This document shows positions 37,825-46,885 of a stretch of DNA of 64,000 nucleotides, in pieces. Both the position numbers and the translations under genes were made by a program. This DNA is from Neobacillus driksii (GTDB taxonomy: Bacteria > Bacillota > Bacilli > Bacillales > Cytobacillaceae). Under the pieces are notes generated by a model. The model saw only the letters and a program-made list of their open reading frames with translations. It ran no database searches and was not told the DNA's origin. The first letter of the stretch is position 1. Every line of letters begins with the position of its first letter. The DNA lies in assembly GCF_013409995.1 (NCBI RefSeq), contig NZ_JACCBX010000007.1, positions 248,001 through 312,000 on the forward strand, written 5' to 3'.

Positions 37825-37857
37825 GTTAGGGTTTGTTTAAGGTTTCCTTTATAAAAT
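37825..37857 (+). promoter_or_regulatory. CiaR-type operator/promoter of the DUF4353 lipoprotein gene
   Basis: GGTTTGTTTAAGGTTT (37830-37845) is identical to 16 bases of the VTC operon promoter at 44244-44260. It contains one perfect TTTAAG half-site (37836-37841) and a degenerate partner GTTAGG 11 bases upstream. A -10-like TAAAAT lies at 37852-37857, 10 bases after the half-site. Confidence 0.55.
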
Positions 37858-37891: not shown

Positions 37892-39900
37892 TTGTTAGAA
37901 ATGAAAAAAGGAGACAATAGGATGAAGAAAAAATCAATGTTATTAAAAGCAGGTTCAATCATTTTATGCTCAACACTTTTGTTTTCCTGCAGTAAAGCTA
38001 CAGATTCCACGAACGAATCTAGTACAATTGCAGCTGTAAATACGGAGGAGTTAAGTACAATTGGAGATAAAGAGGTTAGTGCAGTTATAGGTGAAACTAT
38101 TTCCTATAGCGATGACGATTTTTACACGGATTGGGAAAATGAAAATCCAACTTATATTGAATTAAATGGAGCTAGTGCTAGCTTTAATGAGCAGTGTTCG
38201 TAACGAATAATGTTGTTACCCTAAGGGCTGCAGGAGTATATGTTATTAGCGGTAATCTAGATGACGGTCAAATCATTGTTGATGCAGAAGATAAGGGAAC
38301 TGTTAAGCTCGTATTAAATGGTGCCTCAATAAACAGTAGCAATCAAGCTCCGATTTATGTGAAAAATGCAGGAAAAACCGTTGTATCTCTTCCGGAAGGT
38401 ACGGATAATACGCTATCGGATGGAACCGAATATGTGCTAGAGGATTCATCTGATAAGCCGAATGCAGCCCTTTATAGTAAGGACAACCTAACGATTAATG
38501 GTACTTGTAAACTAACGGTCCATGGAAATTACAATAATGGAATAACGAGTAAAGACGAATTAAGAATCACAGGCGGTACCATTGAGATTGATTCAGTAGA
38601 TGATGGATTAATGGGCCGAGATGTGGTGGGAGTTAAGGAAGGAACGATTACCATTGAGGCCGGCGGAGATGGAATCAAGTCTTCAAATAATAAAGATTCG
38701 TCGAAAGGAAATATAGCCCTTGAGGGTTGTAGGTATGATATCACAGCAAGTAGTGATGGAATCCAAGCTGAAAGCTCTTTATTAATTGCTGATGGAGACT
38801 ATACCATTTCTTCTGGTGGCGGCAGCCCAGAAACGGTAGCAACGAAAGGATATGATATGAGACCGACTGGTAATGAAACCACAACGGCAACCACTCCAGT
38901 AACAGAAACTGAAAGTGCAAAAGGATTAAAAGCAACGGTAGATGTGGCTATCGGTGGGGGACGCTTTAAGATTGATTCTTCTGATGATGCGATACACAGC
39001 AACAATAGCGTCACCATTGCAGGCGGTGAAATGACGATGGCATCAGGAGATGATGGTATACATGGAGATACAGCTGTTCTTACAAAAGGTGGAAAAATAA
39101 ACATTACCAAAAGCTATGAAGGAATTGAGAGTAAAGTCATAAGTATAGCCGATGGTGAAATTGACGTTACTCCAAGCGACGATGGGATCAATGTTGGCGG
39201 CGGAATTGACGGTTCAGGTATGGACTTCCAATCCACTGAAACGGATGACAATTTATTATCGATTTCAGGTGGAACTGTTACCGTTAACTCAGCAGGTGAT
39301 GGACTCGATTCCAATGGTTCAATCCAAATGACTGCTGGTACGGTTTTAGTTAATGGTCCGACAGACAATGGCAATGGTTCACTTGATTACGATCAAAGTT
39401 TTGAAATGGCGGGTGGTTTCTTGATTGCTGCAGGTAGTGCAGGGGTGTTACAGGCTACTTCAGAACAATCAATCCAGAATGCTATGGTTATGACCTATCC
39501 TGAAACACAAGCAGCAGGTACACTCCTTCATCTTGGAGACAGCGATGGAAACACAGTAGCAACGTTTGCACCGGAGAAAGATTATCAAGCAGTATTTATC
39601 AGCTCACCAAACCTCGAAAAGGATAAGGATTATACGCTTTATTCAGGGGGAACATCAACAGGTAAAGAGGCAGATGGTCTTTACAGTGATGGAGATTACA
39701 CTGGCGGTACCAAAGTAGTAGAATTTATGATTTTGGACTCTGTAACGTGGCTTAATGAATCCGGTGTGACAACCGGCAGCAGCGGCGGTCCTGGAGGCGG
39801 AGGCATGAGAGGCGGTGGTCAAAGACCTGATCGTGGACAAACACCTCCTACAGGAGAAGCGCCAGATGGCAGCCAGACACCACCAACCACTAATCAATAA
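37892..39900 (+). pseudogene. Carbohydrate-binding (DUF4353) lipoprotein, frameshifted
   Basis: The first frame gives a lipoprotein signal (STLLFSCSKATDS) and an N-terminal domain ending at a stop at 38201-38203. The second frame (from about 38194) continues with the DUF4353 beta-helix-like repeats: VYVISGNLDDGQIIV, DDGLMGRDVV, GDGIKSSNNKDSSKG, SDDAIHSNNSV, DDGIHGDTA. A one-base deletion near 38191-38194 explains the break. The C terminus is Gly/Pro/Thr rich (GGPGGGGMRGGGQRPD). Intact, it would be a secreted lipid-anchored polysaccharide-associated protein of about 665 residues. Confidence 0.78.
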
Positions 39901-42773: not shown

Positions 42774-43463
42774 TTAAGCAGTAAAGTTGCCGTCATAGCT
42801 TAACATAATCACTGATTTAACATCTTCTATACTTGAAATATGATTAATAAAATCTAGGTCATGATCTTTGACTCTTATTTCATAGGTTATTTCAAAATCG
42901 CTGCCTGGCATCGCAGACTTTGATTTAAGAGAATTCTTTAGGGCATGTCCAGAAATAACATGTTCAAGTGATTTTTCAATCGAAGTGCTGCTGTATCTCA
43001 CAACTAATAAATAAGGGTTTTCAATCTTTATCTTGTTAATAAAGACAAGTAAGACGGCTCCAATCAAAATGGATCCAATAATAGCAAGAGGGACAAATCC
43101 AGCTCCACACAAAATTCCTGCCACGATCGCCCAAAAGATATATACGATGTCCATAGGGTCTTTAATAGGTGTTCGGAAACGGATAATCGATAAAGCCCCT
43201 ACCATCCCGAGTGATAACAATGCATTAGAAAAGAATCCCATGATGATTAGGGCCGTTGCCATTGCCATTGCCATGATAATTAACGAAATATTAAAAGTGT
43301 GAGAATAGATAACACCCGTGAAAGTTTTCTTGTAGACGTAATAAATAAGCAAACCTAGTCCAAAAGCGGCCAACAATCCAATCAATGAATCTACTATCGA
43401 AAAACTACTTGTTTTTTCTAAAAAACTTGATTTGAAAATATCCTTGAAATTTAAACTTTCCAT
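42774..43463 (-). CDS. DUF4956 membrane protein
   Basis: About 229 residues: an N-terminal amphipathic part, four membrane spans and a soluble C-terminal domain. The conserved stretch MVGALSIIRFRTPIKDP is the family hallmark. ATG 43463 follows ggaggatttacaa. DUF4956 genes very often sit beside a VTC polyphosphate polymerase gene, as here, where it starts 27 bases downstream of the VTC stop. It may help pass or anchor polyphosphate at the membrane, but no activity is proved. Confidence 0.85.
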   Translation of the reverse strand: MESLNFKDIFKSSFLEKTSSFSIVDSLIGLLAAFGLGLLIYYVYKKTFTGVIYSHTFNISLIIMAMAMATALIIMGFFSNALLSLGMVGALSIIRFRTPIKDPMDIVYIFWAIVAGILCGAGFVPLAIIGSILIGAVLLVFINKIKIENPYLLVVRYSSTSIEKSLEHVISGHALKNSLKSKSAMPGSDFEITYEIRVKDHDLDFINHISSIEDVKSVIMLSYDGNFTA

Positions 43464-43489
43464 TTGTAAATCCTCCATTTATGTGTGAA

Positions 43490-44179
43490 TTAACCAAACA
43501 TTCTGCTGTATTGATATTTTGAATAGCCGCCTTTTCGTCGATCGATAACTTGAAGTAATTGTTTGATCACTTCAGGTAAATATTCATCAAATTTCACTTC
43601 AAGAACCACGACATTCGGAGTAGTCTCAACCATGGCTAAATCTGGGTTTAAAAGATCGTTATTGCGAAAACTCGTTTTTATGCAGCTATCAAATGTGACC
43701 CGGACGTTGCCATATTCATAAATGAACACTTCACGTTGATAGTCGACAACCGTCATCGGTTTTAATTGATAGAGTTTCATTTGGACGTATAGGTCCTTAA
43801 CGAGAGGTCTTGTGTCATGTTCCATCCATTCAATGTCACCAAATTGAATCCGTTCATATTCCTCTGCCGTTAAACGGCATTTTTGTTTAAAGGTTAAATT
43901 ATCACGTTTGCTCTTTTTTTCAAGATTAAGATAATCCATGTTGTAATCATATAACCTGACTCTAAACTTATCTCGATCAAGTAAACCTTCTTTTTTCTGC
44001 GACAAAACCTTATTATCAAAGTTATCGAAGTAGACACTTCAAATTAAGTATTTTCCATTGTTTTTCGCATGAGGGTCCGATTTCATAAAATGCTTTAATT
44101 TATGTCGAAGCAGATAGCAATCCAATGAAGTCACTTCATGCTTTAATTCTCTCCTGCCCTTCACTCCATTTAAGCTCAT
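43490..44179 (-). pseudogene. VTC-domain polyphosphate polymerase with in-frame TGA
   Basis: Reading one frame from ATG 44179 gives a full VTC-domain start (RRELKHEV...KSDPHAKNNGKYLI, stop, SVYFDNFDN), then the remaining domain with LLDRDKFRVRLYD, KQKCRLTAEEY and VVVLEVKFDEYLP. VTC enzymes make polyphosphate from ATP. The only break is a TGA at codon 47 (44041-44039), where family members have Arg (YLIRSVYFD); CGA to TGA is a single transition. The downstream part could start again at TTG 44005, but would lack the first conserved strands. Confidence 0.82.
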
Positions 44180-44227
44180 CGCCTTCAACTTTTCTCTCTC
44201 CAATCTGTTAACAACTTCTTGAAACCT

Positions 44228-44260
44228 ATTATGTTAGGTAAACCTTAAACAAACCTTAAA
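44228..44260 (-). promoter_or_regulatory. CiaR-type operator and -10 box of the VTC/DUF4956 operon
   Basis: On the minus strand TTTAAG-GTTTG-TTTAAG (44260-44244) is an exact TTTAAG-N5-TTTAAG direct repeat. A -10-like CATAAT (44233-44228) follows after exactly 10 bases, the geometry used by CiaR-activated promoters in Streptococcus. Sixteen of its bases recur upstream of the DUF4353 lipoprotein gene. Confidence 0.7.
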
Positions 44261-44346
44261 TGTTATAAAGAAAGAGAAAAAATACATACAATGATTTCAA
44301 ATGGTAATAATTAGATAGTATTATTTCTAGCAATGGAGGGCTAAAA

Positions 44347-45942
44347 GTGGAAGAAAATCAAGACAAGAAGGGTACTGGTGAAAGTTCTGATTCCTTAACC
44401 AATCGCCAGGGCCATCCTGTAACAGATAACCAAAATATCAGAACGGTTGGCAATCGTGGACCATCCACGCTTGAAAATTATGATTTCATTGAAAAAATTT
44501 CTCATTTTGACCGTGAAAGAGTGCCAGAACGGGTGGTTCATGCACGAGGAGCGGGTGCGCATGGATATTTTGAAGCCTATGGAAAAGTAGGAGATGAACC
44601 AATTGCAAAATACACAAGAGCAAAGCTATTCCAAGAGGCAGGAAAGCGTACACCGCTGTTTGTTCGTTTTTCTACAGTGGCAGGCGCAATGGAATCACCG
44701 GAAACAGCGCGAGATCCGCGGGGGTTTGCCGTTAAATTTTACACTGAGGATGGCAACTGGGATCTTGTTGGGAATAACTTAAAAATATTCTTTATCCGCG
44801 ATGCAATGAAATTTCCTGATATGATTCATGCGTTTAAGACCGACCCGGTTTCAAATTTAAGTAACCCTGAGCGGATGTTTGATTTTCTTTCACGTACACC
44901 AGAAGCTACACATATGGTTACTTTCTTATTCTCTCCTTGGGGAATTCCGGCGAATTATCGCCAAATGCAGGGATCAGGTGTAAATACATACAAATGGGTG
45001 AACAAGGATGGAGAGGCTGTTCTCATCAAATACCACTGGGAACCGTTAAAACAGGGTATTAAAAATCTGACTCAAAAGGAAGCTGAACAAATTCAAGCTA
45101 AAAATATCAGCCATGCTACCCAAGATTTATATGAGGCAATTAAGCGTGGTGATTACCCTGAGTGGGAGCTTTGCGTTCAGATTATGAGTGATGACTACCA
45201 TGCTGAGCTGGATTTTGATCCATTAGATGATACAAAATTATGGCCAACAGATAAGTTCCCATTCTTAAAAGTCGGTAAAATGGTATTAAATAAAAATCCG
45301 GAAAATTATTTTAATGAAGTAGAGCAGGCTGCCTTTGGTACAGGAGTCTTGGTGGATGGATTGGATTTTTCCGATGATAAAATGCTTCAAGGCAGAACAT
45401 TTTCCTATTCAGATACACAGCGATATCGCGTAGGAACAAACTATTTACAGCTTCCTATTAATGCACCTAAAAAGCGGGTGGCAACCAACCAGCGGGGCGG
45501 GCAAATGTCCTATCACGTAGATTTGGCACCAGGTCAAAGTCCGCACACCAATTATGAGCCTTCCGTTATTGGAGGTTTAAAAGAAGCTGAACAGGTAGGG
45601 AAAGTTCATGAACCACACTATAATGACAAATTGGTTCGTGAAAAAATTGACCGCACCAATGATTTTGGACAAGCTGGTGAAACATATAGGAGTTTTGAGA
45701 AATGGGAGAGAGATGAGCTCATCAGCAATCTTGTCGACGCACTCAAAGTATGTAGACCAGAAATCCAGGATAAAATGATCGAGTATTTTACGAATGCAGA
45801 CGAGGATTATGGAAGACGTGTCAAAGAAGGCGTAGCAAATGCAATGGAAATGAGAAACGATACCACACATACAAGCAGTGCTGAAGCAGATGAGGCGACA
45901 GATAAGGTAAAACAAATGGGACATGAAGCAGATCCATATTAA
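44347..45942 (+). CDS. Catalase (KatX-like monofunctional heme catalase)
   Basis: A 531-residue clade 3-type catalase. Catalytic His is in [12 protein letters not shown], the Asn in NWDLVGNN, and the proximal heme Tyr in [17 protein letters not shown]. The N-terminal [31 protein letters not shown] closely resembles B. subtilis KatX, the spore catalase that protects germinating spores from peroxide. GTG 44347 follows tggaggg. The C-terminal 30 residues are unordered and Thr/Ala/Glu rich. Confidence 0.93.
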
Positions 45943-45993: not shown

Positions 45994-46885
45994 TTACATG
46001 GGTAGTTTTATTTTAAATGTCGTGCCTCCATTTTCATTGGAGCTGACTTTAATACTGCCATCATGAGCTGAAACAATCCATTTGGCAATAGAAAGACCTA
46101 ACCCTATTCCGCCTGATTCTCTGGTCCGTGCTTTGTCTTCACGGTAAAAACGATCAAAGATAAAGGGAATATTTTTTTCTTTGATTCCGATCCCCGTGTC
46201 ACTGATTTCCAGTATAACTTTATGGTCTTCCTCATATGTTTTCACACCAATACTGTCATGTTCGGAAGTGTATTTTAATGCATTGTCGAGCAAAATGACA
46301 AGCAGCTGATGAAGACGGGTTTCATCTGCATTGATTGTATGGGTGCTGTTTAAGTTTAACCAGAAATGCTTTTCCTGTGATTCAGCGATTTCGATATAAG
46401 GTGAACATACTCTTTTAACAAAACTGTCAACATGAACCACTTTTTTCTCCAGCTGAGTTTCAGAAGAGTCGGCCCTTGCTAACGTCAACAAGTCAGTTGT
46501 CAGCTTCGATAGTCTCCTAGTTTCAGATAGGCTTAAGGCAATATTTTCAAATTTGTTCGCTATTTTTTCATGAGGTGTGGTCAGCATTAACTCTAATTTG
46601 TTTTGAATAATGGTTAATGGCGTTCTTAACTCATGGGAGGCATTTTCAACAAACTCGGCTTGCTTGTTCCAGGACTGAATAGTCGGTTTCATCATCTTTT
46701 TTGATAAATAATAGCTGGCAGAAATCGATAGTAATATAAAGAATGATGATGAGTTTACTGAAATTATTTAAGATATTCTGCTCCGCGTCAATATTAATCA
46801 GCAGCTGAGTACAGACAACTTCATCTCATCGTCATCATTGGTATCTTCAAATAAAATATTTGGAATAATTGCAAAATGTTTTAAT
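45994..46885 (-). pseudogene. Decayed CiaH-like sensor histidine kinase
   Basis: The C-terminal kinase core is intact from about 46695: HELRTPLT (H box), LLDNALKYT (N box), ISDTGIGI (G1) and GGIGLGLSIAKWIV (G2). Upstream the frame continues through a membrane helix (FFILLSISASYYLSKK) but hits TAA. The extracellular piece (LINIDAEQNILNNFSKLII; IIPNILFEDTNDDDE) lies in other frames, with shifts near 46735-46745 and 46815-46832. The first membrane helix, the true start and any response regulator gene are missing; a VOC gene on the other strand begins at 46963. Confidence 0.75.

Follow-up and report, generated by a model that had tools for sequence, protein, structure and literature searches.

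A probable relic of a CiaR-like two-component circuit at a VTC-DUF4956 operon and a DUF4353 lipoprotein gene in Neobacillus driksii

In streptococci, the operator of the response regulator CiaR was described as NTTAAG-N5-TTTAAG, CiaR-controlled RNA genes were searched with a distance of ten bases to TATAAT, and the recognition helix of CiaR was given as VVEVYVSKVRKKL (available excerpts of PMC3091779). In Bacillus anthracis, the OmpR-class pair BAS0540-BAS0541 has been called the closest CiaRH homologue of that species and was reported to bind in vitro to sites of the NTTAAG-N5-TTTAAG type (excerpts of PMC4938410). The targets named there are its own gene, ftsA, a CAAX protease gene, yflT and an efflux gene; compared by description, VTC, DUF4956 and DUF4353 are not among the named targets in these excerpts (30 genes in all; PMC4938410). 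A polyphosphate polymerase adjoining DUF4956 is known from another context, as CotH, a polyphosphate polymerase, DUF4956 and DUF4832 form a Pel-linked accessory set in streptococci and clostridia, and the excerpted text mentions neither DUF4353 nor a two-component pair in connection with it (PMC7112168). Among the matches listed from the open-licence PMC literature, none linked a CiaR-like pair to VTC, DUF4956 or DUF4353, and none described the trigger or the product of VTC-DUF4956 operons. An OmpR-class regulator acting on an 11-base direct repeat is a known mode of control; the VTC/DUF4353 circuit did not appear in the literature covered.

The DNA analysed here, called the window, is a stretch of 64,000 nucleotides from the 6.5 Mb genome of Neobacillus driksii. 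Operators were scored with a 22-base matrix built from 22 VTC sites (20 sites with a linked regulator plus the sites of loci L053 and L054), and a score of at least 15 was taken as an operator call. The relevant features are the following.

37825..37846, plus strand: operator 2 (DUF4353 promoter), GTTAGGGTTTGTTTAAGGTTTC, left half one base from the TTAAGG form, matrix score 27.4
37852..37857, plus strand: -10 hexamer TAAAAT of the DUF4353 promoter, ten bases past TTTAAG
37892..39900, plus strand: DUF4353/Cthe_2159 lipoprotein gene with a frameshift, in two frames (37892-38203 and 38194-39900)
42774..43478, minus strand: DUF4956 membrane protein gene, open frame, directly after VTC on the same strand
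43490..44188, minus strand: VTC-domain gene (predicted Vtc4-like triphosphate-tunnel fold), with an in-frame TGA at 44039-44041
44228..44233, minus strand: -10 hexamer CATAAT of the VTC promoter, ten bases past the second TTTAAG
44239..44260, minus strand: operator 1 (VTC promoter), direct repeat TTTAAGGTTTG TTTAAGGTT with an 11-base period
44347..45942, plus strand: catalase gene between the kinase remnant and VTC, found also in L038 and partly in L177, absent from L037
45994..46859, minus strand: histidine kinase remnant, aligning to residues 145-432 of 433
46857..46859, no strand: deletion junction, where about 1.15 kb of L038 (1441-2588) is missing

Both repeats that the initial annotation had reported were found again. 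The minus strand from 44260 to 44228 reads TTTAAGGTTTGTTTAAGGTTTACCTAACATAAT, in which TTTAAG-N5-TTTAAG (44244-44260) is followed at exactly ten bases by CATAAT; the site has no mismatch to NTTAAG-N5-TTTAAG, reaches a matrix score of 35.6 (maximum 37.4) and shares an identical 19-base core with most sites of relatives. Sixteen bases, GGTTTGTTTAAGGTTT, occur in two perfect copies in the window, at 44240-44255 on the minus strand and at 37830-37845 on the plus strand, the latter upstream of the DUF4353/Cthe_2159 lipoprotein gene and with TAAAAT ten bases past TTTAAG. Here the left half is altered to GTTAGG, so that operator 2 fits the full pattern less well.

From the comparison of sequences across related genomes it is highly probable that these sites belong to a CiaR-like two-component circuit with a narrow predicted regulon, VTC-DUF4956 and DUF4353, which persists in the window's genome as a relic. 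The two repeats would be operators of a dedicated CiaR-like pair adjoining the VTC-DUF4956 operon in several Bacillales families, and a sensor-regulator pair of related soil bacteria very probably works this operator. A membrane-bound histidine kinase, in which about 130 residues lie between two hydrophobic segments, would phosphorylate an OmpR-class response regulator, whose dimer would sit on the 11-base direct repeat TTTAAGGTTTGTTTAAGGTT directly upstream of the -10 box, overlapping the -35 region. The regulator would thereby switch on a Vtc4-like polymerase, the DUF4956 membrane protein and a secreted beta-helix lipoprotein of the DUF4353/Cthe_2159 type. We infer regulator binding, a polymer and a signal, and activation rather than repression is expected by analogy with the CiaR case. 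In the window's genome, deletion of the regulator gene and the kinase N-terminus, together with the stop in VTC and the frameshift in DUF4353, would have left the operators orphaned.

The arrangement resembles streptococcal CiaRH in the 11-base direct repeat, in the -10 box ten bases past the second TTTAAG and in 8 to 10 of 13 recognition-helix positions; it differs in that the conserved sequence extends to TTTAAGGTTTG-TTTAAGGTT, that VTC-DUF4956 and DUF4353, which lie close to the regulator genes, are the predicted targets, and that other taxa are concerned (CiaRH after excerpts of PMC3091779). The likeness concerns the DNA-reading helix and the operator geometry.

The intact locus was seen in relatives. 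A search with DUF4956 led to 33 named loci spanning Neobacillus, Cytobacillus, Robertmurraya, Metabacillus, Schinkia, Sporosarcina, Planomicrobium, Brevibacillus and others, and intact copies of the VTC, DUF4353, regulator and kinase genes are present among the relatives. The linked CiaRH-like pair, for which a search had been proposed, is there: the regulator occurs in 23 of the 33 loci (L037 and 22 others that are 74-95% identical to it; in L059 as a 180-residue frame), and all 23 carry NTTAAG-N5-NTTAAG upstream of VTC. The usual order is DUF4353, transcribed leftwards from its operator, then rightwards the regulator, the kinase, a second operator, VTC and DUF4956. This linkage supports the earlier proposal that one CiaR-type regulator of the OmpR class once controlled both VTC-DUF4956 and DUF4353, and the words "once controlled" are apt because an ortholog of the regulator was not found in the window's genome, where the best matches reach 37-38% identity and none lies at E<=1e-65. 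Four of the ten regulator-less loci keep the repeat at VTC (L051, L053, L054 and L066); L053 and L054 start near the operator, and in the corresponding genomes, G187 and G189, a different contig carries the regulator. No repeat was found at VTC in the regulator-less loci L045, L056, L068 and L069.

Across the order, the regulator was found in 8 of 397 genomes, belonging to eight families. In five of the seven regions outside the family of the window, the arrangement is complete and each of the two target genes has its operator (L203, L204, L206, L207 and L208); L205 starts at a contig edge, leaving only regulator and kinase visible, and in L209 the operator lies divergent from the regulator, with no VTC within 16 kb. 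CotH genes, which had been suggested as a further member, follow DUF4956 in Brevibacillus (L062, L064 and L068), Clostridium (L066), Bacillus dakarensis (L056) and an archaeal record (L069). As far as Brevibacillus, Clostridium and B. dakarensis are concerned, this is as in the Pel-linked set (excerpts of PMC7112168). At the operator-bearing loci of the window's genus (g1) no CotH match was found, and CotH was rejected as a member of the circuit there. As a separate observation, a further VTC-DUF4956-DUF4353 set was seen in Neobacillus jeddahensis (L143, L045); the regulator pair near it is another one (about 41% and 28% identity), and such an operator is lacking.

The association between operator and regulator was quantified in three ways. 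Among VTC promoters whose stretch also contains the regulator, all 30 score at least 15 (minimum 18.3), 20 of these 30 having trained the matrix; the ten untrained ones range from 18.3 to 37.4. Intact VTC operons of relatives lacking the repeat, which the initial annotation had named as a point against a shared regulator, were thus not what was seen among linked promoters; the opposite was. Among the other 26 of the 56 distinct VTC promoters, nine score at least 15, namely the window, L053 and L054 (both training sites, counted among the 26), L051 (genome G139), L066 and four loci of g20. The sites at these four g20 loci are weaker variants of the operator, and the fifth g20 VTC promoter scores 8.5.

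For DUF4353 the test is independent of the matrix, as no DUF4353 site was used in training. In 30 loci (one further copy, in G190, is unscored), all 20 promoters from regulator-bearing genomes (17 genomes) score at least 25, compared with four of ten elsewhere at 15 or more, two of the four being those of the window's genome and of its close relative G121. Second DUF4353 copies elsewhere in G186, G187 and G188 (L237-L239) also have the operator.

Within the family, the regulator is present in 18 of 193 genomes with at least 396 bits, clearly apart from the next class at no more than 243 bits and 44-49% identity. VTC occurs in 17 of these 18 genomes and so does DUF4353. Exact operators, TTAAGGTT-N3-TTAAGGTT, are present in 33 of the 193 genomes: in 17 of the 18 regulator genomes versus 16 of the 175 others, and in 22 of the 33 genomes with VTC versus 11 of the 160 without. 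A manual tally placed 38 of the 46 exact copies in regulator genomes at VTC or DUF4353. In one genome, G182, the regulator is present but VTC, DUF4353 and an exact operator are all missing.

The regulator itself, examined in the relative L043 (Cytobacillus praedii), has Response_reg and Trans_reg_C domains and belongs to the OmpR/PhoB class, and in each of three kinases inspected some 130 residues separate two hydrophobic segments. Over the 23 named loci, the recognition helix is mostly VVEVYASKLRKNL or VVEVYASNLRKNL and agrees with that of CiaR at ten of 13 positions in 11 loci, at nine in 11 and at eight in one, the ortholog L044 of genome G008. The 16 OmpR-type regulators found in the window's own genome match the CiaR helix at three to eight positions, fifteen of them at six or fewer and L072 at eight. 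Since L044 and L072 are equal in this respect, the helix separates the groups incompletely. In structure databases the regulator matches PDB entries 4s04 and 8jo2, which are PmrA/BasR and, like the regulator, of the OmpR class. PmrA/BasR reads TTAAG-type half-sites. An assignment to PmrA was rejected, as the NCBIfam PmrA model gives 155-165 bits against a cut-off of 330.

The window's VTC gene has a VTC Pfam match. The model of an intact VTC relative (pLDDT 84) matches yeast Vtc4 in Foldseek with an E-value of about 1e-11; by sequence, the single protein had no match in the PDB and a profile gave only a weak one to Vtc4 (E 0.083). With this Vtc4-like modelled fold, polyphosphate is the likely product. 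The DUF4956 model is of modest confidence (pLDDT 73, pTM 0.54), and its fold search returned no match below 0.001; a weak fold match to the C-terminal domain of MgtC and a weak NCBIfam MgtC match are hints only. The window's DUF4353 protein matches PF14262 (2.8e-97), and an intact relative matches Cthe_2159 (4peu) by sequence. Cthe_2159 is described as a carbohydrate- or chitin-binding protein (in the excerpts available), and a lipobox-like stretch at the DUF4353 N-terminus suggests secretion.

In the window's genome the locus is decayed. The kinase about 2 kb from VTC, which had been taken for one of the right type, is indeed the cognate kinase, but it is a truncated remnant and not an intact partner: its longest open reading frame has 233 amino acids (45994-46695) with HisKA and HATPase domains and no strongly hydrophobic segment. 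The roughly 1.15 kb missing relative to L038 take in the entire response-regulator gene along with the N-terminal part of the kinase. In G121 (L177) homology ends at the same base, 46857, and the deletion therefore probably took place in an ancestor common to both genomes. G121 has lost more, in window coordinates the kinase from 46287 to 46857 and the stretch 43103-45243, which covers VTC and its operator as well as portions of DUF4956 and of the catalase gene. The catalase gene is a lineage-specific insertion and is not counted as part of the circuit. With the stop in VTC and the frameshift in DUF4353, both window operators are most likely orphaned relics. Side observations at other loci are of a similar kind. 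In L177 of G121 (1834-2918) the regulator is also gone, DUF4353 and its operator are retained, and the locus appears to be eroding stepwise. In the other two of the ten regulator-less loci, L065 (Bacillus sp. NTK034) and L067 (Rossellomorea arthrocnemi), only a DUF4956 fragment is left, L065 having DUF4353 tail fragments as well, so that the locus seems to decay repeatedly.

It might alternatively be supposed that another OmpR-class regulator has taken over and that the window operators are still read as working switches. The 19-base core of the VTC operator is unchanged though the regulator is lost, good operators persist at both VTC and DUF4353 in G139, where the regulator group is absent at E<=1e-65 except for a 48% paralog, and L072 has as many CiaR helix residues as the true ortholog L044. 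Together with the weaker g20 variants, the operators of G139 indicate that another regulator may read such sites. However, the genes behind the window operators carry a stop and a frameshift, a half-site of the DUF4353 operator is changed, and G121 is without the VTC gene and its operator. Moreover, none of the 16 OmpR-type regulators found in the genome has the helix start VVEVY or VIEVY, L072 is without NTTAAG-N5-NTTAAG in its 3.7 kb locus, and the unchanged core may simply reflect a recent deletion. A takeover is thus considered unlikely.

Less probable still, the 11-base repeats might be sites of the paralogous regulator of the 44-49% group, with the linked regulator acting elsewhere. This paralog is present in G139 and in four of the five g20 VTC genomes, and in four of 12 loci scanned NTTAAG-N5-NTTAAG lies near it, accompanied by a -10-like box that is similarly spaced. 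Those nearby sites, however, are of the TTAAGGAA/TTAAGAA type, the paralog's helix IVEVFMHHLRKKL agrees with CiaR at only seven of 13 positions, and by a manual tally 11 of 49 paralog genomes have the exact TTAAGGTT repeat (two of them also with the linked regulator) versus 17 of 18 linked-regulator genomes. The paralogous regulator is seen in L128, L129, L131 and L136 with TTAAGGAA/TTAAGAA-type repeats and -10-like boxes nearby, and is a possible reader of the g20 variant sites. Elsewhere, L082, L084, L105 and L107 have a different OmpR-class regulator beside two or three TTAAGG-type half-sites; in three of these (L082, L084 and L107, not L105) one frame downstream belongs to a shared cluster that includes an ABC-transporter ATPase (L092). 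With this ABC-transporter-linked regulator beside TTAAGGTT triplets and with the sites near the paralog, the half-site is not exclusive to the circuit. Accordingly, further exact TTAAGGTT repeats are not claimed as targets: those of L082, L084, L105 and L107 lie beside the different response regulator, and those of L086, L089 and L097 adjoin genes without a Pfam match.

The significance of the repeat depends on how much of it is considered. The bare pair TTTAAG-N5-TTTAAG occurs in six exact copies in the 6.5 Mb genome versus five for the reversed control and is therefore not significant alone; with up to two mismatches, the window has 21 matches versus 20 expected, and the bare pair was dropped as a genome-wide marker. 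The longer sequence TTAAGGTTTGTTTAAGGTT (19 bases) has exactly two sites in the genome with no more than one mismatch, which are the VTC and DUF4353 promoters. One further site has two mismatches and three have three (six sites in total at up to three); the reversed control gave five matches at up to three mismatches, a figure without a breakdown by mismatch number. Across the 193 family genomes, TTAAGGTT-N3-TTAAGGTT gave 65 matches versus three for the reversed control (summed by hand). The pattern conserved at 90% in the 30 linked VTC promoters is TTTAAGGTTT.TTTAAGGTT........ATAAT, in which 18 of the first 19 bases are conserved at this level and the distance to ATAAT is fixed while the eight bases between vary. 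At the fixed offset of ten bases past the second TTTAAG, the 30 linked promoters and the window have NATAAT in 29 of 31 cases and TATACT in two. Random scatter, the other point raised against the repeat, thus applies to the undiagnostic hexamer pair and not to the longer operator. That the repeat is a mere AT-rich promoter (a -35-like element plus -10), similar by chance or shared DNA ancestry, is hardly credible and strongly disfavoured: the chance frequency of the bare pair in genome and window would suit it, but the excess over the control, the association with the regulator across genomes, the conserved pattern at a fixed distance around variable bases and the same operator at the non-homologous VTC and DUF4353 promoters all stand against it.

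Returning to the CiaR-like circuit, a wider and more doubtful reading can tentatively be drawn. A self-contained two-component module of several Bacillales families might serve mainly or solely to switch on the Vtc4-like polymerase, DUF4956 and the beta-helix lipoprotein. Its output would then be an exported polyanion made under regulation, possibly polyphosphate, together with a dedicated protein that binds it at the cell surface. In Neobacillus the module might be eroding, the regulator first and then the enzyme, with operators outliving their regulator. VTC-DUF4956 operons occur in many bacteria, and a dedicated sensor with a sharply defined operator offers an experimental handle on them. 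With so few predicted target genes, the same experiments could address the signal, the polymer and what the DUF4353 lipoprotein does. If the circuit is as proposed, CiaR-type DNA reading would serve an envelope-polymer locus outside streptococci, and the locus would be a worked example of a regulon eroding outward from its regulator.

Two other sites were noted in addition. In L108 (G186), positions 1498-1532 show the full operator with the -10 geometry, possibly belonging to an untranslated RNA or a relic; the site is not claimed as a target, as no convincing gene follows until a permease-like frame (judged from its translation) 0.6 kb on. In L165 (G180), TTTAAG-N5-TTTAAG stands without mismatch 58 bases upstream of a distant VTC-DUF4956 copy (33% and 29% identity); the site scores 9.2 and has no linked regulator, and judging from it CiaR-type control of VTC may be older or may have arisen repeatedly.
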